Source: Clostridia bacterium (GTDB lineage: Bacteria > Bacillota > Clostridia > RGIG6154). From it: DNA of 64,000 nt. The notes under the pieces were generated by a model, which was not told where the DNA came from, did no database searches, and saw nothing but the letters and a program-made list of their open reading frames with translations. Below are positions 28,964-62,460 of this stretch, one piece after another. The translations under genes and the position numbers were made by a program. The stretch is taken from contig JAFQQW010000066.1 of assembly GCA_017410375.1 (NCBI GenBank), positions 53,042 through 117,041 on the forward strand, read 5' to 3'. Numbering within the stretch: the first letter of the stretch is position 1; every line of letters begins with the position of its first letter.

Positions 28964-31900
28964 TTATTTTGTAATCGGCTCACAAAGTGGTGCTAAGGTC
29001 GAGCCGCCGGGTGCATCTGCCCCTGCATACGGTTTTGCACTCCATACATATACCTTCCGGTTATCCGAAATGGCGCCCACATATGGAGTAAGAGGCGTAA
29101 TTACAACATCTTCGATGGATTCTACGCCCAGCATTTCTCCACCGCTTCCGTAATTTACCACAAAGAGCCTTGCGGTTACGGTTCCGTCACTTGAAAGTGC
29201 AAATTTATCCTCTCTCTTTGTCACTTCCACCTTAAAGGTTGTGCCGGCATCCACCAGATACAGGTTGGTCTTATCCAGCTTGGGATTGCTTGACATGTGA
29301 TACGGTTTCCAGGTCGCGGTAGTTGTACTGTCGGGCAATGCAACCAAAGCATTTTCTTTATCTTTATAGGTTAAATGATCCACATACACATCTAAACGGG
29401 TGTTGTTTTTTGCATCGTAGCCCACAAGCGGATGATGTTCCGGATGTGTGAGAAGCTGTTTTGTATTTGCAGGTACGGTAACGCCGTTTAATGTATAATC
29501 GGTTGTATTCTGTAGATATCCCGTAATGTATGCACCCAAAAGACCCTCACCGTCTGTTTCATTTTCCACATAAGAGCCGTCCTCTGCATAAGTGAGGGCA
29601 AAGTTGAGCTTTGCATTGTGCAGTTGTGCCACATTAAAGCAGAGCTTAAATTTCAACGCCTCACCACATGCAGAAAACAGACTTTCCACACTAACCGGCG
29701 AGAATGCATTTAAGGTTGCCTCGGAAACGGTAATCACATCGTTTGCATGCAACGGAATCTTATGCACGTTTACAGCTTCTTTTCCGTTTACCGTAATGTA
29801 TTCGGCAGTCGTACCGTCTGCTCTTGCCGTAAGACCTGCTGCTGCAACAGCATCTGCAACGGTAGGCGTTAAAATATCGTCTCCGAAAATATCGGTGCTG
29901 ATTTTGCTTGCAACCACATCATATTCGGTTCCGTTTACCGTAGCCTGAACCGGCTCCTTGCTTAACACAACTTTTTCCAGATACAGAGGTCTTAGTATCT
30001 CTGCAGTTTCCTGCGAAATTGCAGTGGGACCTGAATAAATATCAGTGCTTGTGAGAAAAAGATTCGTCTCCTCTGAAGAAGGAACGAGTGCAATCATGGC
30101 AAGACGGCAATAGGTGTCGGACTGCTTTGCATACTGCACTTTAAATTTCTGATCTTTTTTAAGGGTTACGGTTGCACCGTCCTGCTTGGACCAGAAGAAG
30201 TATCGGTCTTTTGCCGCTTCTCCTGCAAAAGCTTCAGGTCTTGCGGTTGAGTTGTACAATACATCATCAATATAGAATTTTGCAGCACGGGTTGTGGCAT
30301 TTGTCTGATCAAGGTCGGCACGCATAACCCAGACATCATAAGTGCCTTCCACCTTGGATTTGTATACCATAGACGGGCCTTTGCCGTTTTGCATGGCTGT
30401 ATTTTGTTCGTCCCAGACTTTGTATTCATGCTCATTGTTAGCGGTCATGACAGATTTTGAAAGCGTACCCGGCCATACACTGTCTGCTTCATTTACAAAT
30501 TCCGTTACGGGAATAAAGATGGTTCCCTCCGGAAATCTGCCCGTATCATAATAAATACCCGTCGTCTGCGACTGATTGCTCAGCACCGCATTGGAAAGCT
30601 TTTCGGTAAACATCTTTGCTTTAGCAGCCGAATAACGTCTGTTTACACCAACCTTTTGCGTGCCCGTCGCATCATAGTAGTCCTCGCCGTTGATTTCAAC
30701 AACCAGCGCTGTACCTGCGCTGTTTGTGCGGAAACCGATAACAGGTGCATTCACCAATTTATAGGTATACTCAAATTCCTCGGTTTTTACGGTTGTGCCA
30801 TCTTCTTCATAAACAAACGAGCCATCTCCATTTTGCACAGCAGCAACACCTTTATAGCTGATGTCACCGTTCAGCACAAGACCATCATAGTTATTGCCTG
30901 TATTATACACTGAAAATTTAAGACCTTTTTCCAGTTTAAAACCAAGGGCTTTTGCAATCTCTTCTCCGTTTCTAAGAACAAAAGATACCGTTTCCCCTTT
31001 GTAGCCTGCATATCCGGAATCAGCACCCGTGGAGCTATATGACAGGTCAACCGGTGCTTTAAGGAGATTGGGATTTTCAACCATTGCTTTGTGTGTCTCA
31101 AAGTTTCCGTTAGGCGAAATGATTTTTGCGGTTGTCGCGGTTTTGATGCTTGCATAAATATCCGCCTTTGCATTTTCTGTTGGCGGCACAACCAGAACAG
31201 TTGTCCCATTTTCACGAACTTCATTGGAAAGAATTGTGCTTTCGAGCAGGGCTATTCCCTCGCCTGCTTTGTCATACAAAACCGCACTGACCTTTGCGCC
31301 TGCCATTTCGCCGTCTGCAACGGTTTCAAGTCCTGTACCTTTTAAAAGTTCCTCGGTGGACACCACAAGACGGAACAGCTTTGTATCACTCAATCCGATT
31401 GCAGTAACCGGTATGGTAAAACTCTCAAAATCAGACAACAGAGAAATCTGTTTTTCCTCTTCATACGCACCATAGGTATACGGCTTAATTTCGTCTGCGG
31501 ATAGCGGACGCAAAAAGCTTTTGGCAAGCACGGAATTTGTTCCGTCAAGAGCTGTTGCGGTTACTTTAAACTGAATATCCTGATCCGCAGGCACTTTGAT
31601 GATGGTTTCAAAAGGATATTCGTCCACCACTACACTTTCTTCCTTTTCGCCGATGGTATAGTCAAAGGTTACGGATTTTGTATCCTCTGCCATTTTGGTG
31701 GTATAAATATAGGCATAATAATTCTCGCCATTAAACTGTAAAACATGCGCCTTACCGTCTTTAAACGCCTTACTTGTGTCGCCCAAAGTATTTGAAACGG
31801 TGTAGTCGCGCGCAAACAATGGCACATCCACCTCCGGATGTAAAACAACAGATACAATGTCCCTTCCGGGAATGGTTACCGTAAATTTTCCGTCTGTAAT

Positions 31901-34900: not shown

Positions 34901-35302
34901 AGCATCCCACCGGGATGTAAAGTTCAGGCTATCACAAAGAAATTCCAGCGGAACAAGTGCTTCGCTGTCTGCTGAAATTGCAGCTGCATCTAATTTCACG
35001 GGTGTGCCGTCAACCGTTGCAATATCAGACTTCAAAGTAACGGTCAGACGTTTCCCGTTTTTACCTGCGACAACAAATGTTTCATTTGCTTCATTCCACT
35101 GCACGGTTGCACCAAGTGCCTCTGAAACAGCGCGTAGCGGAATCAGAATTGCCGAGTCTGTAACCACAGGGGAAACCGCGGATACAAGTGGTGTTCCGTT
35201 TATCAATACTGTAACATCCCTTTGCTCTGCCATAATGGGAAGTGTAGCCAAAATTGAAAACAATATTGCAAAGCAAACCAGTAAAGCAACAAATCTTTTC
35301 AA
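28964..35302 (-). CDS. Giant secreted protein: stalk domain, CBM-like domain, putative (alpha/alpha) catalytic module, duplicated C-terminal module
   Basis: About 2112 aa. Signal peptide 1-25, then a PF07833 stalk domain (~27-145), a CBM-like domain (~150-285), and a large region (~300-1200) with helix-rich motifs such as YHSINEAIYNTTDL, YGGWDDKDKGFYNME and IYWHHIPVFLGLLEDFLIN, suggesting an (alpha/alpha) toroid enzyme. I cannot name a CAZy family. Residues up to about 1350 are homologous to 40594-45528. The last ~730 residues are homologous to the separate protein at 36846-39059. The ATG at 35311 directly abuts its AAAGG, so the TTG at 35302 (9 nt away, matching the paralogue's start) is preferred. 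It lies between the GH20-like and GH2 genes, probably co-transcribed. Confidence 0.75.
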   Translation of the reverse strand: MKRFVALLVCFAILFSILATLPIMAEQRDVTVLINGTPLVSAVSPVVTDSAILIPLRAVSEALGATVQWNEANETFVVAGKNGKRLTVTLKSDIATVDGTPVKLDAAAISADSEALVPLEFLCDSLNFTSRWDAETYTASLTSKQITADSVIYFYGSAHFDLGCWIPEGNYAMRGKSATSVDSDIFIENTTDDAVLNFNIVAPGTYKVWVSSKDFPNDHPGRRFFRVAVDGVRSDVTFGAHGKSGYAWQEAGVYDFDEGTHTLNLQDTSAYYARCGGVIITGDLDYVPSNVEAEYAVYYADDGTNSQLVPARYPLWATRAMSDTKTETIENDKMKMVFYQGNGEKGSLVQNEIYMKKDNEWILVKARSEELGVLAMRALEAPYNAERPLVDLSALSKMVFRATYEGFDREVTFGATQEFYKTGRPEWLIPTSMTRNGDAIVLGMSSDNLNATLTFEFDALCQEPKATFNATMKTDGAYSFAFFTGNEFEDGSFSRVTAPLSFVKDFVPEDSCVLSEYMMFTPMVTFTFGEGENAMTKGVVVDPTYVRQGVATPGDSAFGVMFRSPNGYVRGQLVAPLLNDKGSQFKAGESYDFAYRIVYNNADWYENYVHVAEDMYNCVDLRTNYYHSINEAIYNTTDLVLDDVYGGWDDKDKGFYNMEASGYVSQSNIIELAQRYALTENEQILEERLVPSVAFALSRGGKHFKSVAGEASYTRFAPAPLTGPDKTISPAAYIGMYQFSQGRTPYLLNLGLASFSAASNLGAVSGYNAMNDMFPDQRYIDALKAKADSFIESDLNNPQSDFNNRPFVGGYVPEDSNNLLNTFIQAYEVTGEQKYLDAATEAAHLSMSTLWTTGYQNDYATKTYTVDPVKTAERMEANGNAKWFFHKDGVQWRVGNPYGVVTKASDAQNKLKEESAPGWVPARAGMSTEHFATPANANAITMNMWAGTMLRMSEYTDDAFLLTQARNAIVGKFGNYGGYYWDRYLLHDKQARYPYDGPDYNMIYWHHIPVFLGLLEDFLINEVWLRSEKNIEFPSVVNSGYAYFTSNQYGFKPGKFYDEEDMWLWLDRGIVEPDSIEVSYLTARKENTLGVALVNESEKPLTTTVTLGEKIPNAASYSETATLYDKDGNQSTVAITDGKFTVTIPGRDIVSVVLHPEVDVPLFARDYTVSNTLGDTSKAFKDGKAHVLQFNGENYYAYIYTTKMAEDTKSVTFDYTIGEKEESVVVDEYPFETIIKVPADQDIQFKVTATALDGTNSVLAKSFLRPLSADEIKPYTYGAYEEEKQISLLSDFESFTIPVTAIGLSDTKLFRLVVSTEELLKGTGLETVADGEMAGAKVSAVLYDKAGEGIALLESTILSNEVRENGTTVLVVPPTENAKADIYASIKTATTAKIISPNGNFETHKAMVENPNLLKAPVDLSYSSTGADSGYAGYKGETVSFVLRNGEEIAKALGFKLEKGLKFSVYNTGNNYDGLVLNGDISYKGVAAVQNGDGSFVYEEDGTTVKTEEFEYTYKLVNAPVIGFRTNSAGTALVVEINGEDYYDATGTQKVGVNRRYSAAKAKMFTEKLSNAVLSNQSQTTGIYYDTGRFPEGTIFIPVTEFVNEADSVWPGTLSKSVMTANNEHEYKVWDEQNTAMQNGKGPSMVYKSKVEGTYDVWVMRADLDQTNATTRAAKFYIDDVLYNSTARPEAFAGEAAKDRYFFWSKQDGATVTLKKDQKFKVQYAKQSDTYCRLAMIALVPSSEETNLFLTSTDIYSGPTAISQETAEILRPLYLEKVVLSKEPVQATVNGTEYDVVASKISTDIFGDDILTPTVADAVAAAGLTARADGTTAEYITVNGKEAVNVHKIPLHANDVITVSEATLNAFSPVSVESLFSACGEALKFKLCFNVAQLHNAKLNFALTYAEDGSYVENETDGEGLLGAYITGYLQNTTDYTLNGVTVPANTKQLLTHPEHHPLVGYDAKNNTRLDVYVDHLTYKDKENALVALPDSTTTATWKPYHMSSNPKLDKTNLYLVDAGTTFKVEVTKREDKFALSSDGTVTARLFVVNYGSGGEMLGVESIEDVVITPLTPYVGAISDNRKVYVWSAKPYAGADAPGGSTLAPLCEPITK

Positions 35303-35329
35303 AAAAAGCATCCTTTCTAACTTTTCATC

Positions 35330-36766
35330 CTATACAAGTCTTTTTTCTATTTCAAGCAGTCCTTGGACTGCACCGTCAAATGCTTCGGTGTCGACATAGC
35401 CGGTGGTGTTCCAGGTTCTGTCCGACAATGCCGGAAGGTCTTTTAAAACTCTTTTTATTTCCTGTTCATATGTACAGCTCCAGGTACAGAGCATACCACC
35501 GATAACACTGTTGTCCGGCTGAATTTCCATACCGCCGTATGCCTTTGAAAACTTTGCCCAGTTGTCCCATTTATAAAGGTTCCAGTCGTATCCTGCAACA
35601 GACCAATTCAAATCTTCCGCATCAGCGAAAGAAGCGGTGGGTGGCAGGATATACAGAGGCTTCCAGGAGGCGTTGATAATTTTAAAGCCGCCGTCTAAAA
35701 GCTCGTTTGTGGTCTGATAAAAGTTTTCCCACGAAACAACGATTGTGTCTCTTGAAATCTCTTCCGACCCCTCTTTAGGGAATCCCTCCCATACAATGGG
35801 CGTTCTTCCGAGAGAAAAACAAATGTCTATAATTTTCCTGGCAAAATGGCTGTACATACTTCGGGTTGAGGCAAACCCGTTTTCTTTCATATATTTTCGG
35901 CAATGCTTACAAGAAAGCCAGTTCTGATGTCTTGCCTCGTCACATCCTACATGAATATATTTTGATTGTTTAAAAATTTCGGCAATTTCAGTAAGCATTG
36001 CGCGGATGTCTTCAAAAATAGTGGGTCTTCCGATACACATAATGTTATCATTAAATGTAGCTTCTACGTTAATTGCGCCATCTGTCTCGCTTGATTTTTC
36101 AGTATCATATTCATTTCCGAAGCGATTCGGATAAACGGCATTTAAATGAGCGGAATGTCCGATTCCCTCAAATTCGGGAACAAGCTCAATTTCCGCATCT
36201 TTTGCGTATTCAACCAAAAAAGAAAGTTCTGTTTTTGTGTACGCCTTTCCCTTGGTTGCTGCCTCAGGCAAGCAATCCAAGGGAAGCGTCCACAGCTCGT
36301 TATCCGTAAAATGAAGTTGTAAAAATTTAATCTTGTTGACATAACATAAGTCAACATAGGATATAAGGGTTTCAAAGGGATGAAACTGTCTTCCGAGATC
36401 AATCATAAGACCGCGGAAGGCGTTATCGGGTTTATCTGTAATTTCGGTATTCCTTAAAAGATACTGATCTCCGTCGCGTTCTAAAAGCTGAAGCAAGGTA
36501 GAAAGCCCGTAAGACGCACCGGCTTTTGTTTTGGCAAAAACGGTGTTTCCCTGTATCTCATATTCCTCTTCGGCTAAAGCTTCCTTGTGCTTAACATAAA
36601 TTCCGCCCTCGCCCTCTTTAAAACACAAACCGAAAACCTTGTAAGCAATGCGTGAAAACGCCTTTTTACAGGAAGAAAATATATCGTCAGAAGCGATGCA
36701 GGGTAAAATATTTAAAACACCGCTTTCTTTGTAATGCTTGGGCTTTGGTATAATCAACGGAATCAC
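35330..36766 (-). CDS. GH20-like beta-N-acetylhexosaminidase
   Basis: A 478-aa protein with the GH20 layout: an N-terminal zincin-like alpha/beta domain (~1-110) and a TIM barrel beginning FRGLMIDLGRQFHP (compare RGLMLDVARHF in the family). The catalytic Asp-Glu pair is at 276-277 in YIHVGCDEARH, where GH20 usually has H-x-GGDE; here Cys replaces the second Gly. Substrate-assisted removal of terminal N-acetylhexosamines is the family reaction, but the unusual motif leaves room for another sugar. No signal peptide, so intracellular. The ATG at 36766 follows AAGGAGTG. It ends 27 bp before the giant protein gene and is preceded by a terminator, so it starts a new transcription unit. Confidence 0.8.
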   Translation of the reverse strand: MIPLIIPKPKHYKESGVLNILPCIASDDIFSSCKKAFSRIAYKVFGLCFKEGEGGIYVKHKEALAEEEYEIQGNTVFAKTKAGASYGLSTLLQLLERDGDQYLLRNTEITDKPDNAFRGLMIDLGRQFHPFETLISYVDLCYVNKIKFLQLHFTDNELWTLPLDCLPEAATKGKAYTKTELSFLVEYAKDAEIELVPEFEGIGHSAHLNAVYPNRFGNEYDTEKSSETDGAINVEATFNDNIMCIGRPTIFEDIRAMLTEIAEIFKQSKYIHVGCDEARHQNWLSCKHCRKYMKENGFASTRSMYSHFARKIIDICFSLGRTPIVWEGFPKEGSEEISRDTIVVSWENFYQTTNELLDGGFKIINASWKPLYILPPTASFADAEDLNWSVAGYDWNLYKWDNWAKFSKAYGGMEIQPDNSVIGGMLCTWSCTYEQEIKRVLKDLPALSDRTWNTTGYVDTEAFDGAVQGLLEIEKRLV

Positions 36767-46930: not shown

Positions 46931-47476
46931 TTATTTGTTTCTTATTTCATTCAAAAGTTTGATTATTTCTGCAAAACCAAGAAACATTGTTCCACTTATC
47001 AAAGAAGCACACCAATAGACAAAAGCGATAGCAAAGGAAAACTCTGTATCAGTATATGTATAATAATATCCTCTTTCTACCTCTACTGTTCCCAATACAA
47101 TACCAGCAATAAATCCACCAATAAATACAATCCACGCTATAACAGTTAATGCTGTTGCAATAGGATTGTCTTTGTTAAAATGATTAAGAATTACATCTTC
47201 TGTTTGTTTGGAATATTTTTTAACTTCTTCATATTCTTCATCAGATACATCTATTGGCACTTTTTTATAATACTTGCTAGTTTGAGTTTGGCTATCCCAT
47301 TCATAACAGGAAAACTCATCACTTTGTTTATTATCAGGTGAATATACTTTTTCAAACAAGCCCAAGTCAATTAAAGTTTTTTTCTTTGCTTCTTCCTGTT
47401 TTTTGTTTAGTTCTTCTTGCTTTTTTAATTCTTCCTCTTTTTTTGCTTCAAAAAAGGCTTTTAATTTTTCATTCAT
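46931..47476 (-). CDS. Small membrane protein with charged coiled-coil N-terminus
   Basis: About 181 aa. Residues ~8-40 are a highly charged helix (EAKKEEELKKQEELNKK and on), likely a coiled coil. A soluble middle part follows (~45-115), then two transmembrane helices (~120-145 and ~150-180: ALTVIAWIVFIGGFIAGIVL and FAIAFVYWCASLISGTMFL). No family is recognised. The ATG follows TTGGAGGG. It is divergent from a small ribbon-helix-helix gene at the edge of the defence-type island, and has a terminator. The function is unknown. Confidence 0.7.
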   Translation of the reverse strand: MNEKLKAFFEAKKEEELKKQEELNKKQEEAKKKTLIDLGLFEKVYSPDNKQSDEFSCYEWDSQTQTSKYYKKVPIDVSDEEYEEVKKYSKQTEDVILNHFNKDNPIATALTVIAWIVFIGGFIAGIVLGTVEVERGYYYTYTDTEFSFAIAFVYWCASLISGTMFLGFAEIIKLLNEIRNK

Positions 47477-47620
47477 TTTTATTCCCTCCAAAATATGTAT
47501 ATAGATATTATAACAGAAATACATATAAAAGTCAATCCTTGTGAATACATTTTGAATATCTTTGTAATATATATTTTGATATTTATAAACATTATAATTG
47601 TATCAAGGAGTGAATACATT

Positions 47621-48280: not shown

Positions 48281-48357
48281 TGCTTTTGAAAATAAAAAAT
48301 GACCGGCATAACCGGTCGTCAAATACAAAAGCGACTGACTCTCGTCAGCCGCTGTTT
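48281..48357. repeat. 77-bp repeat, copy 1 (downstream of the phosphoesterase-STAND gene)
   Basis: Begins TGCTTTTG and contains GACCGGCATAACCGGTCGTC (hairpin) followed by GCGACTGACTCTCGTCAGCC (second hairpin). The same 77 bp with about ten changes lies at 53221-53297, over the 3' end of the KAP NTPase gene. It is ~100 bp past the stop of the 48456 gene and may act as a terminator. Confidence 0.75.
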
Positions 48358-48455: not shown

Positions 48456-51400
48456 TTAATTTAGCAAATTTTTGTGTTGGGCCAAAATTGTTTCTTGCTT
48501 GGAAAATCCACAAAGGTTACAAAATTTCGTTCTTAAACCATGGTCACATTTATTATAGTTTAGGTAATGACCGATTATGGAATCTAATATACGCGAAGCA
48601 AACATTTCATTAGAACTTTCAAACGTTTTCTTTAAACTCTGAATTTCATCATATGAAAACTTATTTAAACAATTCATTTTCAAGTCTGCTAAAATCAATT
48701 TTGATGAAATCGAATCATCCTCCGTAAATGTTTTTTGTGCTGCAGGTAGTAAATGTTCACTATTAAGGGAAATAGCAACTTGATGAACCATACCTCTCGC
48801 CATACCAGAAACAAGCATATTAATAAATCTACGGGTTGCCTTTTCTACATCTTCACGACGGAATTTCTTTTTATCCTTTAATGCCCGCTCCATAACATAC
48901 TCTATTAAGTCTTTTTCAACATAACCCATAGTATTAATAATAGCCTGAATCGAACGCATACCAAGTTTGTGCATTTCAGTTATTATTTCTAACTTTTCTT
49001 TCCCTCTTATCGCTACAGGATAATTTTGAAGTATTTGACCTAAAACCTCAATCGTTTTTAAGGCAGAGGTCACAGAAGCCATCTCTTTTTCTTTCTCTGA
49101 AATCTCAGTATCAATGACTGACTCGCCTTCGGTTGCCGTTCCATCATTTATTCCTATTTCGTCTAACCTTAACAATTCTTTTTCTTTGTTAGCTTCTACA
49201 TTAGAGTCGCTAGCTACAGTCTTTGGAATAAGTGCATTAACAGCTTCTTTAATTTCATCAAAAATAGGATTGGATTTTTGGAAATCAAAGGCTTCATAGT
49301 TTTCAAAAGTAGCATAAGCATTCAGTAGGACGGTGTCTATAATTTCATTACTACCAGCAAAATGGCATACAAATATGATAATGTTACCATATGTTTCGTT
49401 ATATAGAGCCGAACTCATTTTTTCAACTATGCTGATAACATCAGGATCCTTTAGGTTGTATGCTATATATCTTCCTGCAAAATAATAAAAAATATACGGA
49501 TACTTAAATCGATAAACAGAGCCTTCTCCATAACTCAAGCGAATAATATTTGCCTCTATCATCTTAGCCAAAAAATCGGTTGCAGATAATTTTAAAAAGT
49601 AAGTTTCGCCTATTTCTGATATAGCATCGGTTAACTGTTCTTCAGAAAAGCTAGTTTTACCGTTTTTTAGCATTTCAAAACTCAATCTTGATAATACACT
49701 TTGGTCAATATTGTATTCTCCTGCTTTTGAATAGCTATCAGACACCTTTGATAAACAACTACCAATAAGCGATTCGTATAAAAAGCCATATTTGCTACCA
49801 CTAAAGGTTTGTTTAAATGCATCACTATTTTGCAAGGTACCAATAATAAAAACAGGCAATGCAGGTATAAATGCAGCACCGTTACCTAAAAACGTATCTA
49901 TTTGATTTCTAGCTATTTCTATTCGACTCGAAATTTCTTCTTCAGTCAAATCGTTTTCGTCCAAATGATACCATTTTGAAATCAGTTCTTTTCGTTTAGT
50001 ATTTCCTAACGGCAATATATCATAATAGATTAATTGGTCTAACGAAGCAATATATTCTGACGTCAATATTGTTGGTAACTCCATAGAAGACGAAAGAAAA
50101 ATTGTAACACGACCAAAAAAGCCGCACAAGAAATCCAAAACTTTTGCCCGTCTATCCTTGTTATATTTTATCAAATCAAAGTCATCAACAATTGCTATTC
50201 TTTTGTTTTTTGGTAATTGGTTGAAATCCTCTAAACAATCGGCATGGTATTGAGATACAAAAGTATTTTCGATCGTTTCTCTTATTTTACTTATATCAGA
50301 AGAAGTAAATGATTTTCCATTAAGAAATACACAACAAGAATCCTTTGCTTCCTCTATCAAAAACAGACGTTTTGCCAAAGCAGTCTTTCCACCTGTAGAA
50401 GCCCCTACCAAAATATTCAACGCATTATCTGACAATTCTTCAGCAATATTGGTTCGGATTGTTTTATTTCCTCTCTTTTCATTATGGTAATCACTTTTAA
50501 CCAAATCAGGCCAAACAAATAAATCGGTCAACGTTACATCATCTTTTGCAAAATGATTTATAGTAATACCGATATCATTTGCTTCTGACAATGTTTTTTC
50601 ATTTGGATGATATGTATTTCGAGCGGCCGAAATATTTTTATGATATTGATTACTTCTTTGTTCGCCTCTTTTATATGCTTCATTTGACCATATAAAATCA
50701 ATCAAATTATAGTTTTGAAAAGACGAATCAAAATTAAGTACTGTAAAACCGCTGTTTTCGCTATAACTGTCTTGTAATTCCTTGCCGTGGTTGCAAAAAA
50801 CAGAAAAAGAGGTTCCTTCTATTTTATAACTATCCCTTTCGTGCTCGTGTCCTACTAAAATCATATCCGCATTTGTACGAACATAATCAACAAATCCTCT
50901 TTTGTAGTCTGGGTTCAACCAGCCATCCGGATGGTGATACATACAAAAAACAACCTTATATTCATCCAGTTTTACAGTTGGGAAAAGGCTAGTTGGCATT
51001 ATTATTTTACCTGGATTTTCCTTAAGAACTGACATCCATGATGTGTTCATCAAAAGAAAAAGCACCTTATTGTTGCCAACTGACACTTCTTTAGTTGGAA
51101 GACATTGCGAACTATCAATGTCATAATATGTTGCGAGGTTGTTATACTCTTGTTGCACACTGTTTACCACATTATAATATTCACGATCTATATTCGATTG
51201 CTTTGCAGATTGTATAAGTGCATTGCGTACTTCTGATGACGTGCTTTCAAAATCACAATCATGGTTACCAGGCACAAATAATATATTAACATCTGAATTC
51301 TTTTCTTGTTTAATGTATTCGGCGATTTCCGTTAACATATTTTTTGCAAGATCATATTGTTCTTTTTTGCCAGAATATGCAATATCTCCTGAAATCGCAA

Positions 51401-51527
51401 TAATTACACTCCCATTTGATGGAAGCGAACTAACACACGCTGCTTTAAGTTTTCCAACCTTGTTGAAAATAGAATCTCTGTCGTTGTTTATATGTATATC
51501 AGAAAAATGAATAACAGATAGACTCAT
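48456..51527 (-). CDS. Metallophosphoesterase-STAND NTPase fusion (candidate antiviral protein)
   Basis: 1023 aa. Residues 1-270 are a calcineurin-like metallophosphoesterase with all metal motifs: Asp10-x-His12, SGD48, GNHD (87-90), HH (198-199) and GHEH (226-229). Residues ~360-560 are a P-loop STAND/NACHT-like NTPase: Walker A GASTGGKT (375-382) and Walker B RIAIVDDFD (448-449). A helical region (~600-1000) and a Cys-rich end (CDHGLRTKFCNLCGF) follow and probably sense the trigger. STAND fusions with a nuclease or phosphatase head are known antiphage designs; this role is inferred from architecture and from the neighbouring KAP NTPase, AbiE and recombinase genes. The ATG at 51527 follows AGGAGGG. 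Confidence 0.82.
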   Translation of the reverse strand: MSLSVIHFSDIHINNDRDSIFNKVGKLKAACVSSLPSNGSVIIAISGDIAYSGKKEQYDLAKNMLTEIAEYIKQEKNSDVNILFVPGNHDCDFESTSSEVRNALIQSAKQSNIDREYYNVVNSVQQEYNNLATYYDIDSSQCLPTKEVSVGNNKVLFLLMNTSWMSVLKENPGKIIMPTSLFPTVKLDEYKVVFCMYHHPDGWLNPDYKRGFVDYVRTNADMILVGHEHERDSYKIEGTSFSVFCNHGKELQDSYSENSGFTVLNFDSSFQNYNLIDFIWSNEAYKRGEQRSNQYHKNISAARNTYHPNEKTLSEANDIGITINHFAKDDVTLTDLFVWPDLVKSDYHNEKRGNKTIRTNIAEELSDNALNILVGASTGGKTALAKRLFLIEEAKDSCCVFLNGKSFTSSDISKIRETIENTFVSQYHADCLEDFNQLPKNKRIAIVDDFDLIKYNKDRRAKVLDFLCGFFGRVTIFLSSSMELPTILTSEYIASLDQLIYYDILPLGNTKRKELISKWYHLDENDLTEEEISSRIEIARNQIDTFLGNGAAFIPALPVFIIGTLQNSDAFKQTFSGSKYGFLYESLIGSCLSKVSDSYSKAGEYNIDQSVLSRLSFEMLKNGKTSFSEEQLTDAISEIGETYFLKLSATDFLAKMIEANIIRLSYGEGSVYRFKYPYIFYYFAGRYIAYNLKDPDVISIVEKMSSALYNETYGNIIIFVCHFAGSNEIIDTVLLNAYATFENYEAFDFQKSNPIFDEIKEAVNALIPKTVASDSNVEANKEKELLRLDEIGINDGTATEGESVIDTEISEKEKEMASVTSALKTIEVLGQILQNYPVAIRGKEKLEIITEMHKLGMRSIQAIINTMGYVEKDLIEYVMERALKDKKKFRREDVEKATRRFINMLVSGMARGMVHQVAISLNSEHLLPAAQKTFTEDDSISSKLILADLKMNCLNKFSYDEIQSLKKTFESSNEMFASRILDSIIGHYLNYNKCDHGLRTKFCNLCGFSKQETILAQHKNLLN

Positions 51528-51593
51528 AAGCATCCCTCCTATATCGACATTATACATCAAAATAGAAGATTTTACAACAAAAATTGCAGATAT

Positions 51594-51815
51594 TTAAATA
51601 TCATTTACTTTTACAGTCCATTTTTTATTATTTAATGTCAATTTATATTCGCCTTTTTCAGTAAAGCATATAAATTCTGATTGTTTAGAACTTGTTTGTT
51701 TGTTTTCAATATATTTATGAATATATATTGTCTCTCCACCCACTCCTGTAATACCTAAGGGGACAATTTGTCCATTCGGATAAAAATCTGCTCGAACAAT
51801 ATATTCTTCTTTCAT
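51594..51815 (-). CDS. Small conserved-looking protein of unknown function
   Basis: A 73-aa protein, probably all beta (DFYPNGQIVPLGITGVGGET, EYKLTLNNKKWTVKV), resembling a small SH3-like or Ig-like barrel, but no family is recognised. The ATG at 51815 follows AAGGATGA. It lies 66 bp upstream of the phosphoesterase-STAND gene on the same strand, so it could be co-expressed with it. No terminator separates them. Confidence 0.65.
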   Translation of the reverse strand: MKEEYIVRADFYPNGQIVPLGITGVGGETIYIHKYIENKQTSSKQSEFICFTEKGEYKLTLNNKKWTVKVNDI

Positions 51816-51900
51816 ATTATCATCCTTTCTTAAAATAAATAATCTTATTATACAATATTGAGAGTGTTATTTTTGTCATAAATTGCGATAATATAAAAAA

Positions 51901-51952
51901 ACATCAAGTCGCCGACTGAGCTACTCGTGTACTCAATCTCCAACTTGATGCC
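51901..51952 (-). terminator. Long imperfect hairpin
   Basis: CATCAAGT pairs with ACTTGATG and, inside, GATTGAGTAC pairs with GTAGCTCAGTC with one bulge. It lies between the genes at 51594 and 52003 on the minus strand. A probable terminator or RNA-processing structure; the T run is short. Confidence 0.5.
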
Positions 51953-52002
51953 TATCCATAATTCCCATATTCACAGATGGGTGGATGTATCACTAATAGT
52001 AT

Positions 52003-52242
52003 TTAGGTTTGAACAATCATCGGAATATTAACCATGCTTTGATTCCAAATTATTAAATGCGACTTACATTTAGGACAAATCACAATATAGTCTGCGCACA
52101 TGTTATCTTTAGCATCCTTAAGCAACATAATCTTCGAATGATTAAATATATTTTTATTTGCAGCAAACGCAATATTTTTTGCTCCACATAAAGGATTAGG
52201 ACATTTAAACCCTGGTAATTTGTATATTTTTTCTTTACTCAT
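52003..52242 (-). CDS. Small zinc-ribbon-like protein
   Basis: A 79-aa protein with paired cysteines, CPNPLCG near residue 14-19 and CPKC near residue 56-59, which could bind one zinc ion. The rest has no recognised motif. It starts at the ATG at 52242, 3 bp after the stop codon of the LexA-like gene, so the two are co-transcribed and probably share the operator at 52879-52903. Function unknown. Confidence 0.7.
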   Translation of the reverse strand: MSKEKIYKLPGFKCPNPLCGAKNIAFAANKNIFNHSKIMLLKDAKDNMCADYIVICPKCKSHLIIWNQSMVNIPMIVQT

Positions 52243-52245
52243 GCA

Positions 52246-52866
52246 TTATAACACTTTCTTAAGACTATGAATTACACTAATAGCAACGCCTTGTATTTTA
52301 AGGTCTTGCACATAAATGTCGGGATACTCTATTTTGTTGGAATTACATGACTCCAAGAAATATTTTTTGCCATCATCAGTTTTCTTTAAAACCTTAAGAT
52401 TATTCTTTCCTTCATACAATGCCACGACAATATCACCAATATTAGGTTTTTGACTTCTGTTGATAACAACATAGTCCCCTGGATGTATCCCTGCATCTAT
52501 CATAGATTCACCTTTGGAAATAAGAACAAAAAATTCTCCTTTGCCGATTAATGATTCAGGCAATCTAATATATTCAATAATTTCTTCGCTTTCCTCTTGT
52601 CCTTCTCCACATGCGACATACCCCAAAACCGGCATTGAATAAGATGAATGCTCTTTATCCATACGATATGTCTGAATTTGACGCCGTCCCTTATATGCAA
52701 GCACTCCATCATCGTTTAAGGACTGCAAATATCTGTGCACAGTAGAAAGAGAAATACCGGTTTCTTCTGCTATCTGTCTCAGTGATGGGGATTCCCTATA
52801 GTTATCAAAATAAGAATCAATATAATCAACTATTATCTTTTTCTTAAAATCATCTTTAATACGCAT
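52246..52866 (-). CDS. LexA-like self-cleaving repressor (S24 peptidase)
   Basis: 206 aa. Residues 1-65 are a winged HTH of the LexA type (SLRQIAEETGISLSTVHRYL). Residues ~78-206 are an S24 peptidase domain: cleavage site Cys86-Gly87 in GYVACGEG (Cys-Gly as in UmuD), catalytic Ser121 in KGESM and Lys158 in NLKVLK. It should repress until DNA damage triggers RecA-assisted self-cleavage. The ATG at 52866 follows GGAGGAG. Its leader has a perfect 25-bp palindrome downstream of a consensus promoter, so it is self-regulated. It is not certain that this is the host LexA rather than a mobile-element regulator; its island context favours the latter. Confidence 0.88.
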   Translation of the reverse strand: MRIKDDFKKKIIVDYIDSYFDNYRESPSLRQIAEETGISLSTVHRYLQSLNDDGVLAYKGRRQIQTYRMDKEHSSYSMPVLGYVACGEGQEESEEIIEYIRLPESLIGKGEFFVLISKGESMIDAGIHPGDYVVINRSQKPNIGDIVVALYEGKNNLKVLKKTDDGKKYFLESCNSNKIEYPDIYVQDLKIQGVAISVIHSLKKVL

Positions 52867-52878
52867 GAAATCTCCTCC

Positions 52879-52936
52879 ATACTGAAACATTTTGTTTCAG
52901 TATAGATATTATAGCACTACGATATAAAATTGTCAA
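52879..52936 (-). promoter_or_regulatory. Promoter and palindromic operator of the LexA-like gene
   Basis: Minus strand TTGACA (plus 52931-52936), 17 bp, TATAAT (plus 52908-52913). The operator ATACTGAAAC-N5-GTTTCAGTAT (52879-52903) is a perfect 10+10 inverted repeat over the transcription start. It differs from the clostridial/Bacillus LexA box GAAC-N4-GTTC, though GAAAC-N5-GTTTC is reminiscent of it. Confidence 0.85.
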
Positions 52937-53014
52937 GTACTTTATAGAAGTTATTTGATTTTAATTTGTTAAATTTAATGTAAGAACTAATCTTAGTAAA
53001 CCCTCCTTTGGAGA

Positions 53015-53162
53015 TTAATTTTTTTGTTTATAATACTCACTCAATGCTCGTTTTTCTATATTTTCTTTCCATTTCTCCATTTCATCTTCATTTAGACTAG
53101 AAATCGTTTATATCCTGCTCATCATCGCTCGCTATGAAGAGTTCAACCACAAATTCATTCAT
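53015..53162 (-). pseudogene. Small frameshifted ORF
   Basis: On the minus strand MNEFVVELFIASDDEQDINDF ends at a stop, and one frame over the sequence continues SLNEDEMEKWKENIEKRALS then EYYKQKN. A single extra T would account for the break. The intact product would be about 50 aa, acidic then helical. No family recognised and no strong ribosome site. It may be a decayed gene or chance. Confidence 0.35.
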
Positions 53163-53220
53163 TGATACCACATCTCATAACTTCATATTATAATTTCAAC
53201 TTAAATAACAATGTACTTTC

Positions 53221-53297
53221 TGCTTTTGTGTATAAAAAACGACCGGCATAACCGATCGTTAAACACTAAAGCGACAGACTTTCGTCAGCCGATGTTA
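53221..53297. repeat. 77-bp repeat, copy 2 (overlaps 3' end of the KAP NTPase gene)
   Basis: Matches 48281-48357 with about ten substitutions, including GACCGGCATAACCGATCGT and the second hairpin around CGTCAGCC. It overlaps the last few codons and the stop of the NTPase gene. Confidence 0.75.
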
Positions 53298-55081
53298 GCA
53301 ACACTATTTTCTTCCGCTATCTTTGCATTCATTTCTTTTATGTATGTCGTTGTTTCTTCAATAATGTATATTGTAAACGAATCCTTTTCTTTGCTTAGCA
53401 TTTCTAAAAGTATCTTAACAAGTTTATCAAGGTTTTTCACTGTTTCTGCTATATCGTCATGACTTGACACGTATTTATAATCAAATACAAGACCGTTTAA
53501 AGTATGATACAACTCTCGCTTCTCACTATTTTCAACCCTTCTATACGCGGAAACAAAGCATTCTAACAACTCGTCATCAAATGAAACTACACTTTGACTA
53601 CGAAGGTTTGAATTGTCGACCAAATCAGGCGATTTTAAGTATTCTATAAACTTACGCCGATATTCCCATGCTGCCTTTCTGTCTCGCATTCTTTCAATTT
53701 CTTTGTATAACACTTGGGCATGCTCACACAATTTAGATACATGTTCGGGAGTCATAAACGATGAATTCTTGGGCTCTGTTAACCTCCCAGCCTTAATTTC
53801 AGCTTCTCTTGTTCTAAACCCCGAAAGCAATTTTTGATAATCCACATCACACGGTAAAGGGATTTTATATTCATTTAACGCCTGCACTCGACTAAGCAAA
53901 CTTATAATTTCCTGACAGCAAAGCCCACCGGTATATCCGAGCTCAAGTGCGTCTGGCAAACCTTTGGATATAATCTCATCATCCAAATTCCAAAAATCCC
54001 AATTAAGAAAAATCTCATAATAAGTAACTGCTTTAGGCTCAAAATGTACTCGCAACGAATTAATAAGTTCCTCTTCGTCCCATATCCCTTCAACACTCCA
54101 TTTTTGAAGCGGCCTTAGTTGATACGATAGCAGTAGTTTGCTGTACTTTTCTTTTGCATTTGTTTCTGCAAACATATACCCATATTTTTCGTGCTTCACA
54201 TAATTATTTGCTGCTGTCTCGAAATGTATGGCCCCGAACGAATATAAAATTTGAGCCATTTTTTCAGTTGGAATAGAACTCCTTTTCCAAGTACCATATA
54301 TCCGTTCAAAAGCAATAATATATGTTTTGAATGTTCTAATATTCTCATGTTTGCTTTCACTAAAAATTTGTATTAAAACGTCTAAATTTTTCTGCAAAAA
54401 TTCGACATATCCAGCGGTCGTTTCTTTATAGTTTTTCACAATCTCCGTGATTATATTTTTGTAATCAGAAACTAAATGCACGGTGCGTGATATAACTTTT
54501 TCCTTGAAATCATTATACTTGCTGCCAAATATATGCTTTTCGTCTGCAACAATTATTGTTTTGATGCCTGCATTTTCAGAATATTCATTTATAGCCCCTA
54601 ATAATTTTGTGCTATCAACGTTGCATCTTTCGAAATCATCAAAAACTAATACCAATTTCTTGCTGATAATTGTTTTTTCACAATAACATTGTATTTCAGA
54701 AGAAGGCACAACGAAATCATATAAGTTAATAGATAACGCAGTGTTTATTCCCTTCGCAAAATTCGAATACTCGCTCAAAGCGTATGCAATGGATTTAATG
54801 CGCTCTTTGATAGGACCTATTACTTTTGCAGTACCACTTGCATTTTTGCGTAAGATTTGTGCGCAAAAAACGTTTTCTTTCACTTTTTTATGAAGCTGTT
54901 CTACAGTTTCTATACCAAAAAGAGAGATTGTAACAACAATGTATTTTTCACCATTATTTAATTCGCGAGCAATTTCCCTAATCAAATAAGTTTTTCCACA
55001 ACCCCACTGTCCCGTAAGCAAAAGGGCTCCTGCAGATTCATTTGAAGAAACGAACTCACATATTTCCTTTTTGACATCCAT
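53285..55081 (-). CDS. KAP-type P-loop NTPase (candidate defence protein)
   Basis: 598 aa. Walker A is GQWGCGKT (24-31) and Walker B LVLVFDDFERC with Asp148-Asp149, followed by a sensor-like strand TIIVADEKHIFG. This is the KAP family layout of STAND-related NTPases. The C-terminal ~400 residues are helical with no enzymatic motif; no transmembrane insertion is seen, unlike many KAP proteins. KAP NTPases occur in antiphage systems, and the neighbourhood (AbiE, phosphoesterase-STAND) supports that use by inference. The ATG at 55081 has an unusual leader: ten consecutive G (minus strand) from 9 nt upstream serve in place of a normal ribosome site. The 77-bp repeat overlaps its 3' end. Confidence 0.8.
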   Translation of the reverse strand: MDVKKEICEFVSSNESAGALLLTGQWGCGKTYLIREIARELNNGEKYIVVTISLFGIETVEQLHKKVKENVFCAQILRKNASGTAKVIGPIKERIKSIAYALSEYSNFAKGINTALSINLYDFVVPSSEIQCYCEKTIISKKLVLVFDDFERCNVDSTKLLGAINEYSENAGIKTIIVADEKHIFGSKYNDFKEKVISRTVHLVSDYKNIITEIVKNYKETTAGYVEFLQKNLDVLIQIFSESKHENIRTFKTYIIAFERIYGTWKRSSIPTEKMAQILYSFGAIHFETAANNYVKHEKYGYMFAETNAKEKYSKLLLSYQLRPLQKWSVEGIWDEEELINSLRVHFEPKAVTYYEIFLNWDFWNLDDEIISKGLPDALELGYTGGLCCQEIISLLSRVQALNEYKIPLPCDVDYQKLLSGFRTREAEIKAGRLTEPKNSSFMTPEHVSKLCEHAQVLYKEIERMRDRKAAWEYRRKFIEYLKSPDLVDNSNLRSQSVVSFDDELLECFVSAYRRVENSEKRELYHTLNGLVFDYKYVSSHDDIAETVKNLDKLVKILLEMLSKEKDSFTIYIIEETTTYIKEMNAKIAEENSVANIG

Positions 55082-55236: not shown

Positions 55237-56061
55237 TTATAAAACTAGGATTTTCAAGATATCCATAATCTGAACATACTCTATTTCTGCGGCATACGCA
55301 AACTGTTTTCGGTACTTGCCCCACATAGCTCTCAGTTCATCGCTTTCTTCAATGTTTTTCAATATATCAGATACATTCGTGATTTGATTAGCAGTACCTC
55401 GATGTGCGGCAGTAGCTTTCAGCGCTTCTTTAAATAAAACTTTATCATATTTTTGAGCAGTGGTAAGTATGTAAACATCATAAAAATCTCTGGGTCTGGT
55501 ATTAAATACCCCTCTTCTGAGAATGGTTTCAACTTTTTCAGCCATAACAGTTTCAATGTTATACGCCCATAATTCATAATACATATCATCATTAAAAATT
55601 TCCGTAAATCTATATGGGATTGCACGAGGCGTAATCACATCACCTGTAGACACATCAACACTAAGAGATATCACGAGAGTCTCAAATTTTGCATCCAGCA
55701 TTACCCGATAACCACCATATATATCATCTTCTCGAATAGGCGAAATTTTACCAACCTCGAAACAGATGCCATCATCACAAGAAATTTCACAAACACTTTC
55801 TAATGCAGAACGAATTGACTCCGTCGTAAGAGGTAAATTTTTGAGGGTAGTGTCCAAATCCATTGTTGCGCGGTTATCAAGCCCTACAATTGCAGCAACA
55901 AGCATTCCGCCTTTCATCACAAACTTATCTTTGTATTCAGACATCGAAAGTCGTACTAACAAACGTTCAAACATATAGTTTTGCAATATTACCTGGGCAG
56001 GAATATTTTTTTGTTTTGCTATGTTCCTTATTTTAGCTTTTAAGCTCATTGCATTACTCAC
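55237..56061 (-). CDS. abiEii: AbiEii-type nucleotidyltransferase toxin
   Basis: 274 aa, nucleotidyltransferase-like (DUF1814/AbiEii). Signatures: MKGGM (50-52) followed by R64-x-T-x-D-x-D70 (RATMDLD), then a LSVDVSTGD strand with the third acidic residue, and the helical VMAEKVETILRRGVFNTRPRDFYDVY region. In type IV systems it acts as a toxin that modifies tRNA ends; here that is by family. The start is the GTG at 56061, which overlaps the antitoxin stop (GTGA) and has GGAGG seven bases upstream. Phage-abortive infection is the known role of AbiE pairs. Confidence 0.88.
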   Translation of the reverse strand: MSNAMSLKAKIRNIAKQKNIPAQVILQNYMFERLLVRLSMSEYKDKFVMKGGMLVAAIVGLDNRATMDLDTTLKNLPLTTESIRSALESVCEISCDDGICFEVGKISPIREDDIYGGYRVMLDAKFETLVISLSVDVSTGDVITPRAIPYRFTEIFNDDMYYELWAYNIETVMAEKVETILRRGVFNTRPRDFYDVYILTTAQKYDKVLFKEALKATAAHRGTANQITNVSDILKNIEESDELRAMWGKYRKQFAYAAEIEYVQIMDILKILVL

Positions 56062-56651
56062 AACAACACCTCCAGATATTGACGAACAAGTTTTTCCACT
56101 CTTAATTTTTTTGCATACTCATTTAGTTTGTTCAAATCTTTTTCGGGATTAGATATATACATTTTGAGCGCTGATAAAAATGTTTCTGTTCCCACTTTAT
56201 TACGGCTACGGATTATATCGCATATGGTACGTTCCATATCATATGCCGGCACACCGTTTCCCGCCACCGTTTTTACTACTGTTTTCCCTAATGAAAACAG
56301 TTCTTTTTTTATATAATATACTTTGCATTCCGACTTAATTGATTCGGACGGAATACATCCGGATGGAGCAGTAACTGTATGCTCAAAGGGGGTTCGATCT
56401 GAAATCCCATGTAAAAATAAAGCCGTCTCATGTGAAAAAATAATTTTTCCGGAACGCTTGCTGATGGATAAAAGTTCGTCCTGCATATCATCAGGAAGAA
56501 TATATTGACCCCTTGCAATTCTTTGAATTTTGTTTTCTTTACACATTTTACAAAGCACCGCCTTGGACACACCATGTTCTGCAGCGATTTTGGTTTCTAT
56601 AATTCCACCATTATTTTTTGCTATATTAATAAGCTCTGCCATACAATTCAT
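56058..56651 (-). CDS. abiEi: AbiEi-type antitoxin / transcriptional regulator
   Basis: 197 aa. An N-terminal winged HTH (residues ~5-55: NNGGIIETKIAAEHGVSKAV, then MCKENKIQRIARGQYIL) and a C-terminal AbiEi antitoxin domain (~60-197: IFSHETALFLHGISDRTPFE, AYDMERTICDIIRSRNKV). It neutralises the AbiEii toxin and represses the operon. The ATG at 56651 follows GAGGTGATTG. A consensus promoter with an inverted repeat around the -10 box lies directly upstream, fitting autorepression. Overlap of 4 bp with the toxin gene ensures coupled translation. Confidence 0.88.
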   Translation of the reverse strand: MNCMAELINIAKNNGGIIETKIAAEHGVSKAVLCKMCKENKIQRIARGQYILPDDMQDELLSISKRSGKIIFSHETALFLHGISDRTPFEHTVTAPSGCIPSESIKSECKVYYIKKELFSLGKTVVKTVAGNGVPAYDMERTICDIIRSRNKVGTETFLSALKMYISNPEKDLNKLNEYAKKLRVEKLVRQYLEVLL

Positions 56652-59429: not shown

Positions 59430-59580
59430 TTATAAGAGCGGGCTTTTTTCATACCGTTTAAGCCTGTCACTTTTAAAAACTATGCTGAAAAACAACATCA
59501 TCACCGAAACCGACTACAACAAGTGCCGCAATACATTCGCACAAAAACACGGCATATCTTTGTGCAGTATTTTTGCCTGA
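59362..59580 (+). CDS. Small SHOCT-like protein upstream of recombinase
   Basis: A 72-aa protein; the C-terminal part (LLKTMLKNNIITETDYNKC) has the short helix-turn pattern seen in SHOCT-type domains (long polar helix followed by I-T-x-x-E/D-Y). The ATG at 59362 has AAAGGAG ten bases upstream, supporting real translation despite the 68-bp overlap with the preceding gene. It lies 71 bp before the first serine recombinase and is probably part of the same operon. Function unknown. Confidence 0.65.
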   Translation: MATRTVNTVTASATTESAESPLDYKSGLFSYRLSLSLLKTMLKNNIITETDYNKCRNTFAQKHGISLCSIFA

Positions 59581-59651
59581 AAAGACTTGCTATTTGTTCG
59601 GTTCAGAGTGATATATGTAGTACCCAAACTATGATACAAAGGAGAACCGAC

Positions 59652-60893
59652 ATGGAACGAAAAATCAGACAAGTTAAATTTCAAACCTTGCATATACCAA
59701 AGCTGACAAAAGTTGCGGCGTATGCAAGAGTATCTTCCGGCAAAGAAACTATGCTGCATTCTTTGTCCGCTCAAGTCAGCTTTTACAAAGACCTGATTCA
59801 AGAACATCCCGGCTGGGAATTTTGCGGAATGTATGCAGACGAGGCTACGACCGGCACTAAAGCCGACCGAGAGAATTTTGTTCGGTTGCTTAATGACTGC
59901 AGAGCGGGAAAGATTGATATGATAATTACAAAATCCATTTCCCGTTTTGCTCGCAACACGCTTACATTGCTTGAAACGATAAGAGAGCTTAAAAGCATTG
60001 GAGTGGATGTATACTTTGAAGAACAAAACATTCACTCCGCAAGCGCCGACGGTGAACTGATGCTCACCATCCTCGCCTCTTATGCCCAGGAAGAAAGCTT
60101 ATCCGCAAGTGAAAATCAGAAGTGGCGCATCAAGCACAATTTTGAAAACGGCATACCCTGGAGTGAAAACATATTCGGCTACCGATACCGCAAAGGTGTG
60201 TTTACGGTCGTCCCCGAAGAAGCCAAAGTTGTAAAGCTCATTTTCGAGAACTATCTTTCGGGTCTGGGCATTACCGCCATTATGAAAATGCTGAACGAAA
60301 AGGGGTATGTTACAAGATACGGCAACGCATGGAGTGATAAAGGCGTATCCATTATTCTTCGAAACTACACATACACCGGCAATCTGATATTACAAAAGAC
60401 ATACCGCGAAAACCATCTTACCAAACGCATCCTAACAAACAACGGGGAGCTACCGAAATACCATATAGCAAACAATCACGAACCAATCATTTCTCTTGAG
60501 CAATTTAACGCTGTGCAACAAGAAATTAAACGTCGTGCCGAAAAATACAGTTCGAAAGATTCTGTCAACAAAACATACCCATATACAGGACTTATGGTAT
60601 GTGCCAACTGCGGAAAGCGTTATCGCAGAAAGATACGGCCAACCGGTCCTGTATGGATTTGCACCACCTACAACACCTACGGCAAAAAGCATTGTGCATC
60701 AAAGCAGATACCCGAAAGAATCTTAAACGACATAACATTGAAAGCAGTAGGGACTTTAAATGCCCTTCACAATAAAATAACGGCTATACACGTTGAAAAC
60801 AATAACAAGTTGATATTCATCTTCAAAAACGGAGAAGAATCCGTTAAATTATGGACAGGCAACGCAGAAGAAAGGAGCCAAGAACATGAATAA
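59652..60893 (+). CDS. Large serine recombinase 1
   Basis: 413 aa. Resolvase catalytic domain (~20-160: VAAYARVSSG with nucleophile Ser28, then ITKSISRFARNT), recombinase domain (~170-290: FGYRYRKGVFTVVPEEAKVV) and a zinc-ribbon domain (~305-350: VCANCGKRYRRK). No long coiled coil, so shorter than phage integrases of this class. It would excise or insert the element by Ser-DNA intermediates. The ATG at 59652 follows AAAGGAG. The end overlaps recombinase 2 by 8 bp, so the two are translated together and may act as a heteromer. Confidence 0.92.
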   Translation: MERKIRQVKFQTLHIPKLTKVAAYARVSSGKETMLHSLSAQVSFYKDLIQEHPGWEFCGMYADEATTGTKADRENFVRLLNDCRAGKIDMIITKSISRFARNTLTLLETIRELKSIGVDVYFEEQNIHSASADGELMLTILASYAQEESLSASENQKWRIKHNFENGIPWSENIFGYRYRKGVFTVVPEEAKVVKLIFENYLSGLGITAIMKMLNEKGYVTRYGNAWSDKGVSIILRNYTYTGNLILQKTYRENHLTKRILTNNGELPKYHIANNHEPIISLEQFNAVQQEIKRRAEKYSSKDSVNKTYPYTGLMVCANCGKRYRRKIRPTGPVWICTTYNTYGKKHCASKQIPERILNDITLKAVGTLNALHNKITAIHVENNNKLIFIFKNGEESVKLWTGNAEERSQEHE

Positions 60894-62460
60894 GAACATT
60901 ACCGTTATCCCTGCAACCAGGAACATACATGCAAGAACGCCTAAAACGGAGGCTCCGTACAAGCGAAGAGTTGCAGCATATGCAAGAGTTTCCACCGACA
61001 GCGAAGAACAGCTCACAAGCTATGAAGCGCAGGTGCATTATTACACCAACTACATTCTTTCAAACCGGGATTGGAAATTTGTGAAAGTGTATACGGACGA
61101 AGGAATATCTGCCACCAACACAAAAAAACGAGAAGGTTTCAACACCATGATAGAAGATGCACTTTCGGGAGAAATAGACCTTATTGTTACAAAATCGGTA
61201 AGCCGATTTGCCCGTAACACTGTAGATAGTTTAACCACCGTGAGAAAACTGAAGGAAAAGGGCGTGGAAGTATACTTTGAAAAAGAGAACATTTACACCC
61301 TTGACAGCAAAGGCGAGCTTTTGATTACCATCATGTCTTCCCTTGCCCAGGAGGAAAGCCGCTCCATTTCCGAGAACGTGACCTGGGGTCAGCGGAAACG
61401 ATTTGCAGACGGCAAAGTCAGCCTGCCATACAAACAATTTCTCGGCTATAAAAAGGGCGAAAACGGTCTTCCCGAGATTGTACCCGACCAAGCGGAGCTG
61501 GTAAGGCGGATTTATCGTATGTTCATGCAAGGAAACGCGCCGAGCTCCATTGCCCGCAAGCTTACCGAAGAAGAAATCCCAACGCCCGGTGGCAAGACAA
61601 AATGGCAAAGTTCAACTGTGAAAAGCATACTACAAAATGAAAAATATCGCGGTGATGCCCGACTCCAGAAATCTTTTACGGTGGATTTTCTGCAAAAGAA
61701 AACCAAAATAAACGAGGGCGAAGTGCCCCAGTATTATGTGGAAAACAGCCATCCCGCAATCATACCTCCTCAAGAGTGGGACATGGTACAAGCCGAAATC
61801 AAACGGCGAAAAGAAACGGGGCACCGCTTCTCCTCTTCAAGCATTTTTTCATCCAGCATTTTCTGCGGTGATTGCGGCAGTCCTTACGGCTCAAAAGTGT
61901 GGCACTCCAACAGTAAGTACAAAAGAATCGTTTGGCAATGCAACAACAAATTCAATGGCACTTGCAAGTGTACCACGCCCCATTTTTACGAAGAGGAGCT
62001 CAAAGAACTGTTTCTGCACGCCCTCGGCAAGATAACAACATTTAAAGAAAGCATATTAGAAGATTGTCGTCTGATGCAACAAACCCTTTCAGACTGCACA
62101 GAACTGGACACAGAACAAAAACGCCTCACAGAAGAACTCGAAACAACTGAAATTCTTATCCGGAAAAGCATAAACGAAAATACACGCCGGTCTCAAACCC
62201 GTAACGATCGCCAACAACTTATGGAAAAATACGAAACCCTCAAAAGTCAATTGGTTGCCCTCGAAACGGAACGTCAAAGAAAAGCTGACCAAACTTCAGC
62301 AGTAAACTCTTTCATTCGCACACTACAAAAACAACAAACGCCCTTCACTGAATTTGATGATGACCTCTGGCACACTCTTATAGAACGCGTAACCGTAAAC
62401 GACGACGAAAGCGTCCTGTTCAAATTCAAAGGCGGCATGGAAATAGCTACGCAAAAATAA
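60886..62460 (+). CDS. Large serine recombinase 2
   Basis: 524 aa. Catalytic domain (~28-180: RRVAAYARVSTDSEEQLTSY with nucleophile Ser36; ARNTVDSLTTVRKL), recombinase domain (~195-300), zinc ribbon (~325-375: FCGDCGSPYG and CKCTTPHF) and a coiled coil (~390-480: EQKRLTEELETTEILIRKSI), which is typical of large serine integrases and controls directionality. Its relation to recombinase 1 is distant. It is the last gene of the mobile module; the att sites are not obvious from one sequence. The ATG at 60886 follows AAAGGAG within the end of recombinase 1. Confidence 0.92.
   Translation: MNKNITVIPATRNIHARTPKTEAPYKRRVAAYARVSTDSEEQLTSYEAQVHYYTNYILSNRDWKFVKVYTDEGISATNTKKREGFNTMIEDALSGEIDLIVTKSVSRFARNTVDSLTTVRKLKEKGVEVYFEKENIYTLDSKGELLITIMSSLAQEESRSISENVTWGQRKRFADGKVSLPYKQFLGYKKGENGLPEIVPDQAELVRRIYRMFMQGNAPSSIARKLTEEEIPTPGGKTKWQSSTVKSILQNEKYRGDARLQKSFTVDFLQKKTKINEGEVPQYYVENSHPAIIPPQEWDMVQAEIKRRKETGHRFSSSSIFSSSIFCGDCGSPYGSKVWHSNSKYKRIVWQCNNKFNGTCKCTTPHFYEEELKELFLHALGKITTFKESILEDCRLMQQTLSDCTELDTEQKRLTEELETTEILIRKSINENTRRSQTRNDRQQLMEKYETLKSQLVALETERQRKADQTSAVNSFIRTLQKQQTPFTEFDDDLWHTLIERVTVNDDESVLFKFKGGMEIATQK

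Follow-up and report, generated by a model that had tools for sequence, protein, structure and literature searches.

A single intact gene in a low-GC stretch

The window, a 64,000-nt stretch of contig JAFQQW010000066.1 from a Clostridia bacterium whose end is also the end of the contig, carries on its minus strand an intact open reading frame (48456-51527) for a single 1,023-residue protein, with an ATG at 51527 and an AGGAGG ribosome-binding site just upstream. GC content drops from 0.42–0.45 (36–46 kb) to 0.32–0.35 (46–56 kb), and the gene lies within the low-GC stretch together with the AbiE, KAP and LexA-like genes, with two serine recombinases further on:

48456-51527, minus strand: DS-8 family coding sequence, whole (ATG and AGGAGG; family score over cut-off)
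51549-51577, minus strand: promoter-like site TTGTAA-17-TATAAT (10/12, consensus scan alone)
51597-51815 and 52003-52242, minus strand: two small ORFs between the LexA-like and DS-8 genes
52246-52890, minus strand: LexA-like protein with an S24 peptidase domain (100.3 bits against a LexA cut-off of 110.95)
53285-55081, minus strand: KAP-family NTPase, 598 aa, PDC-S49 candidate (PADLOC, 1.5e-46)
55237-56651, minus strand: pair of AbiEii toxin (274 aa) and AbiEi antitoxin (197 aa) (PADLOC, 1.9e-98 and 3.9e-71)
59523-62460, plus strand: two tandem serine recombinases near the contig end

Of the small ORFs, the 73-codon one stops 69 bases before the DS-8 start and the other encodes two CxxC-type pairs. 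The consensus scan also placed a 12/12 promoter-like site (52936-52908) at the LexA-like gene; overall such sites were not commoner than in shuffles (64 against a mean of 57.2, s.d. 7.4). In the same genome, contigs C61, C56 and C9 also carry relatives of the first serine recombinase. Two terminator-like hairpins on the minus strand, at 48301-48317 and 53238-53260, share the core CGGTTATGCCGG; one lies downstream of the DS-8 gene and the other downstream of the KAP gene. An Rfam scan of 36000-64000 returned nothing at gathering scores. The minus strand also encodes a 197-aa protein (46931-47524) that has two hydrophobic segments close to the C terminus and gave no match at 0.01 in Pfam, PADLOC or NCBIfam, and, further left (26068-36766), carbohydrate-degradation genes that include a GH2 beta-galactosidase and GH20.

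In a comparison of six family genomes that counted its own, KAP was present in one (own), AbiEii in two and the flanking EamA gene in three; with EamA in just 3/6, the comparison did not bear out a clean island and its empty site. Around annotated relatives of the protein, the neighbours included an Eco57I-type enzyme and a Pycsar-type effector (L003), a type II restriction enzyme (L007) and recombinases (L005 and L042), and one relative (L041) adjoins type VI secretion genes and a transposase remnant.

The protein belongs to a named defence family

The protein scored 819 bits against the NCBIfam model NF053861 ('DS8_antiphage'; cut-off 790), with residues 7–1007 aligned to positions 1–993 of the 994 in the model, and a PADLOC search, which the earlier note had suggested, matched both models of the defence-candidate class PDC-S60 (2.3e-69 and 2.1e-23). 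In a control set of 14 well-known genomes, NF053861 exceeded its cut-off in none; seven gave a weak match at a looser limit, and one, B. subtilis, at 1e-20. The earlier note had been unable to match the architecture to a named defence system; that view is contradicted by DS-8 and PDC-S60, and a new, unnamed system is ruled out, as the family is named by both NCBIfam and PADLOC. Literature searches found no paper on PDC-S60 or on nSTAND4.

DS-8 was published in 2026 (DefensePredictor) as a single E. coli protein with metallophosphatase and NACHT domains that protects against phages; the published text does not identify the nucleotide degraded (PMC13092281). Changing any one of three residues there, two of them predicted phosphatase residues and the third an ATPase residue, abolished defence (PMC13092281), which is the same kind of mutant test that the earlier note had proposed, carried out on a relative. 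Phosphoesterase and ATPase site residues are present in the window protein, at predicted positions that may not equal those mutated in PMC13092281. Using a relative as DNA query, we obtained homologues from E. coli, which may differ from the cloned DS-8; 'anti-phage protein' is the annotation of some. Two of them (perhaps not the cloned DS-8) scored 954 and 966.7 bits against NF053861, and one labelled 'anti-phage protein' was 24% identical to the window protein (246/1020). Relatives of the window protein scored 791 (P0119), 796.8 (P0056), 798.3 (P0003) and 895.4 bits (L019). In a quickly built tree of 32 backbones, the clade of the window protein was separate from the E. coli rows, with a stem length of 1.37 and 100% support. 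By sequence, the window protein is thus a divergent member of the already named DS-8 family. This membership supports the earlier proposal of a STAND-switched phosphoesterase effector in phage defence.

Conserved head and NLR-like backbone

The protein is ordered as a metallophosphoesterase (MPP) head, a STAND/NACHT-type NTPase (K381, D448), a helical sensor and a short cysteine-containing tail:

50634-51527, minus strand: MPP head, residues about 1–298 (PF00149; fold alignment of model residues 1–298; ligand conservation)
48456-50582, minus strand: NTPase and helical sensor backbone, residues 316–1023 (homologous to TIR-bearing backbones; predicted model)
50382-50405, minus strand: Walker A motif GASTGGKT, residues 375–382
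49476-49652, minus strand: nSTAND_NTPase4 Pfam region, residues 626–684 (9.6e-11)
48507-48545, minus strand: cysteine-containing tail, residues 994–1006 (cysteine counts in 71 aligned rows)

Pfam Metallophos (PF00149) covered residues 4–230 (2.4e-11), and we take D10, H12, D48, N88, H198, H227 and H229 to be the metal ligands, as in the superfamily. Conservation was counted over 133 distinct proteins, drawn from the best 120 of 157 hits and the best 120 of 137 hits of a second protein search that returned mainly the same MPP-headed proteins; the window's own (P0001) is among them. All seven predicted ligands were kept in 127/133, and the other six are shorter proteins with gaps at ligand positions, so that no ligand was substituted in any. 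The Walker B aspartate D448 was kept in 132/133 and the GK[ST] of Walker A in 123/133, the exceptions being five GRT, two CKT and three gaps. The claims of the earlier note that the metal motifs and both Walker motifs are intact therefore held, and the counts for the full ligand set and for GK[ST] indicate that the MPP site is under stricter conservation than Walker A.

In fold alignment, residues 1–298 of the model fitted several phosphoesterase families about equally, SMPDL3A scoring level with purple acid phosphatase (19.3) and with Rv0805 (18.8); a Protein Data Bank profile search gave three distant phosphohydrolase sequences. The full-length model, built from 71 aligned rows (the window protein and 70 of the best 120 listed proteins, fragments omitted), had a mean pLDDT of 86.0 and a pTM of 0.69. 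Its C-terminal region was helical, in agreement with the helical sensor described before. A model of the backbone (residues 316–1023) reached a pLDDT of 84.9, and its best fold alignments were to NLRC4 and NLRP3. Walker A, Walker B and an NLR-like predicted arrangement, as expected of a STAND/NACHT protein, were all found. Searched against BFVD, the backbone had seven matches that passed 0.001, most of them to unnamed or AAA-type proteins. The top-ranked viral fold match was a Siphoviridae sp. cteDy1 phage protein titled NLR family (A0A8S5V3T3, E = 1.1e-8).

The Cys-rich tail of the earlier note was upheld in part: cysteines are present at C994, C1003 and C1006, but the set is not general. Over the 71 aligned rows C994 was found in 71, C1003 in 67 and C1006 in 32, and the tail of both E. 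coli relatives has retained a single cysteine. The C1006 count rules out a zinc-finger tail as a general feature; judged from the alignment, the tail is a subclade feature and not a strict zinc finger.

Distribution of the family

The family is sparsely distributed. In 99 related genomes, own included, one genome (own) held a protein over the family cut-off and one other a head-only match. In a phylum sample of 398 genomes, own included, at least nine matched at 1e-20; at most two candidates were scored per listed genome, which makes these counts lower bounds. Full DS-8 was found in two of the nine (own and L012) and a divergent MPP–nSTAND4 protein in one (L013). The MPP head was joined to NACHT in two (L017 over and L016 under the Pfam cut-off) and to a GTPase-associated adaptor domain in three (L011, L014, L018), and in one (L015) no second domain was found. 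The MPP head is thus also found on other backbones (NACHT, GTPase-system). The nearest named relative found, from Mogibacterium, was 49% identical over the backbone. A tblastn search of 50,697 phage records, a set that may lack those closest to the window's genome, gave no match. Of plasmid records 26 matched, and in two of these the match spanned over 80% of the query.

TIR heads on homologous backbones

The plasmid search also returned TIR proteins that matched solely from residue 266 or 310 onward. Against NF053861, the TIR-headed L005, L006 and L007 aligned over 299–994, 309–993 and 310–993, with 558.7, 392.4 and 365.8 bits. When named genomes were scanned with a backbone alignment of four rows, 84 pattern matches yielded 22 confirmed loci. 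Eleven of the 22 carried an MPP head assigned by motif (L019–L024, L028, L030–L032, L035), with GNHD in 11/11 and GH[EVA]H in 10/11 (absent from L021). Seven carried a TIR head (L025–L027, L033, L036, L040 and L039, where the TIR piece is in another frame), one had a broken MPP head (L037), and three at or near contig ends were assigned no head (L029, L034, L038). TIR_2 was over its cut-off in 9/9 heads scanned (L005, L006, L007, L025, L027, L033, L036, L039, L040); L026, nearly identical to L025, was left out of that scan. TIR-headed cousins occur in other bacteria and in an archaeal MAG. In the Acinetobacter locus L039 (7474-14111) the TIR piece and the backbone lie in different frames and the adjoining genes look by eye like a phage tail, a hint of a prophage-borne relative.

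Backbone trees, which included six of the 133 listed proteins and omitted L029, L037 and L040, gave two head changes with all rows (30 rows; 32 rows). A tree of 29 rows, without the long rows L028, L035 and L039, gave one change with 99% support, and this rules out frequent head swapping. The exchange of MPP and TIR on a DS-8-type backbone is therefore old and may have been a single event, as far as these trees go; a single old exchange makes the analogy from TIR to MPP weaker than repeated swapping would. Calcineurin-type effectors have been described earlier among the exchangeable heads of other conflict systems (PMC7159879, PMC8195603), so the principle of exchangeable MPP heads was already known. 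Our literature searches found no statement of TIR heads on the DS-8 backbone, and the whole word 'TIR' is absent from the main text of the DS-8 paper (PMC13092281).

Proposed mechanism and alternatives

We propose, at a probability of roughly two in three, that the protein is a single-gene DS-8 member in which a phage-triggered NLR-like switch fires an MPP that stops the infected cell. The helical C terminus would sense a phage component, and the NLR-like STAND NTPase would then assemble with ATP. Assembly would turn on the N-terminal MPP, whose predicted targets are the phosphodiester or pyrophosphate bonds of nucleotides or nucleic acid, and the infected cell would stop. What this analysis contributes is that the gene is intact, its score for the family, the order of its domains, the invariance of the ligand positions, the NLR-like fold of the model and the TIR-headed homologues; the trigger, assembly, substrate and cell stop or death we infer. 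Against this explanation stand the identity of just 24% to the E. coli homologue, the position of the protein near the bottom of the NF053861 cut-off, with close relatives at 791–798 bits, the head fold that fits several phosphoesterase families, and the altered Walker A (GRT or CKT) in 7/133.

The reading that survives best beside it, although we consider it unlikely, keeps the protein defensive but has its head clear a signal: the MPP would degrade one specific cyclic or linear nucleotide needed by phage or host, and the cell would not be stopped. SMPDL3A, which degrades cGAMP, is the model for such an enzyme. It was not singled out among the tied head folds, however, and the scan of neighbours turned up no cyclase. 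On homologous backbones the same place is taken by TIR heads, in other settings mostly NAD consumers (NADases). For this reason the MPP head leans to a cell-stopping effector over a signal-clearing enzyme, one old exchange being modest evidence.

Two further readings are far less probable. The gene might work as a multi-gene system together with its upstream minus-strand neighbours at 51597-55081 (LexA-like gene, two small ORFs, KAP NTPase); however, it has its own ribosome-binding site and promoter-like site, the neighbours vary among annotated relatives, and E. coli DS-8 is reported to act as a single protein (PMC13092281). A repair nuclease of the SbcD/Mre11 type, or another housekeeping phosphoesterase, under NTPase control is about as improbable, given the sparse distribution and the defence-type neighbours. 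The protein had no match at 0.01 to the SbcD model TIGR00619, and the nine proteins scanned around the DS-8 gene included none of SbcC/Rad50 type.

Returning to the cell-stopping switch, we give about even odds to a broader version of it, in which DS-8 is one head-version of wider prokaryotic NLR-like receptors and its MPP is a cell-stopping equivalent of the TIR NADase and not an SMPDL3A-like clearer of signals. In this version a single backbone that appears to span many bacterial phyla and an archaeal MAG carries an MPP or a TIR head, the MPP head sits also on NACHT and GTPase-system backbones, and the MPP would use up an essential nucleotide or nucleic acid. The recently validated DS-8 family now extends from E. 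coli to a divergent lineage, and its TIR-headed cousins make the question of signal clearing versus cell stopping directly testable.

Comparison with known systems

The animal NLRs NLRC4 and NLRP3 align with the window backbone at about 14% identity and an rmsd of 5.6, with the final part of the sensor hardly covered, and their effector and sensor are other than those of the window protein. DS-9A and the GTPase-associated (GASH/GAAD) phosphoesterases have a related MPP head but lack the nSTAND4 backbone and have other partners; the window protein scored 40.8 bits against the DS-9 model NF053862 (cut-off 420), and the nine proteins scanned held no HAD family. The TIR-STAND proteins (L005, L006, L007, L025, L027, L033, L036, L040) share a homologous NTPase–sensor backbone at about 20–25% identity, but carry TIR instead of the MPP head and fall on the opposite side of the tree. 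The match to the PDC-S60 model PDLC05050 is confined to this backbone, and the three TIR-headed proteins L005, L006 and L007 match that model too. Closest is DS-8 itself, which like the window protein is a single chain with an MPP head, a NACHT/STAND switch and a helical C terminus, co-linear over its full length. The predicted ligand columns of an E. coli homologue agree with those of the window protein, which differs from the E. coli homologues in its extra tail cysteines, its lower NF053861 score and its separate, long-stemmed clade.
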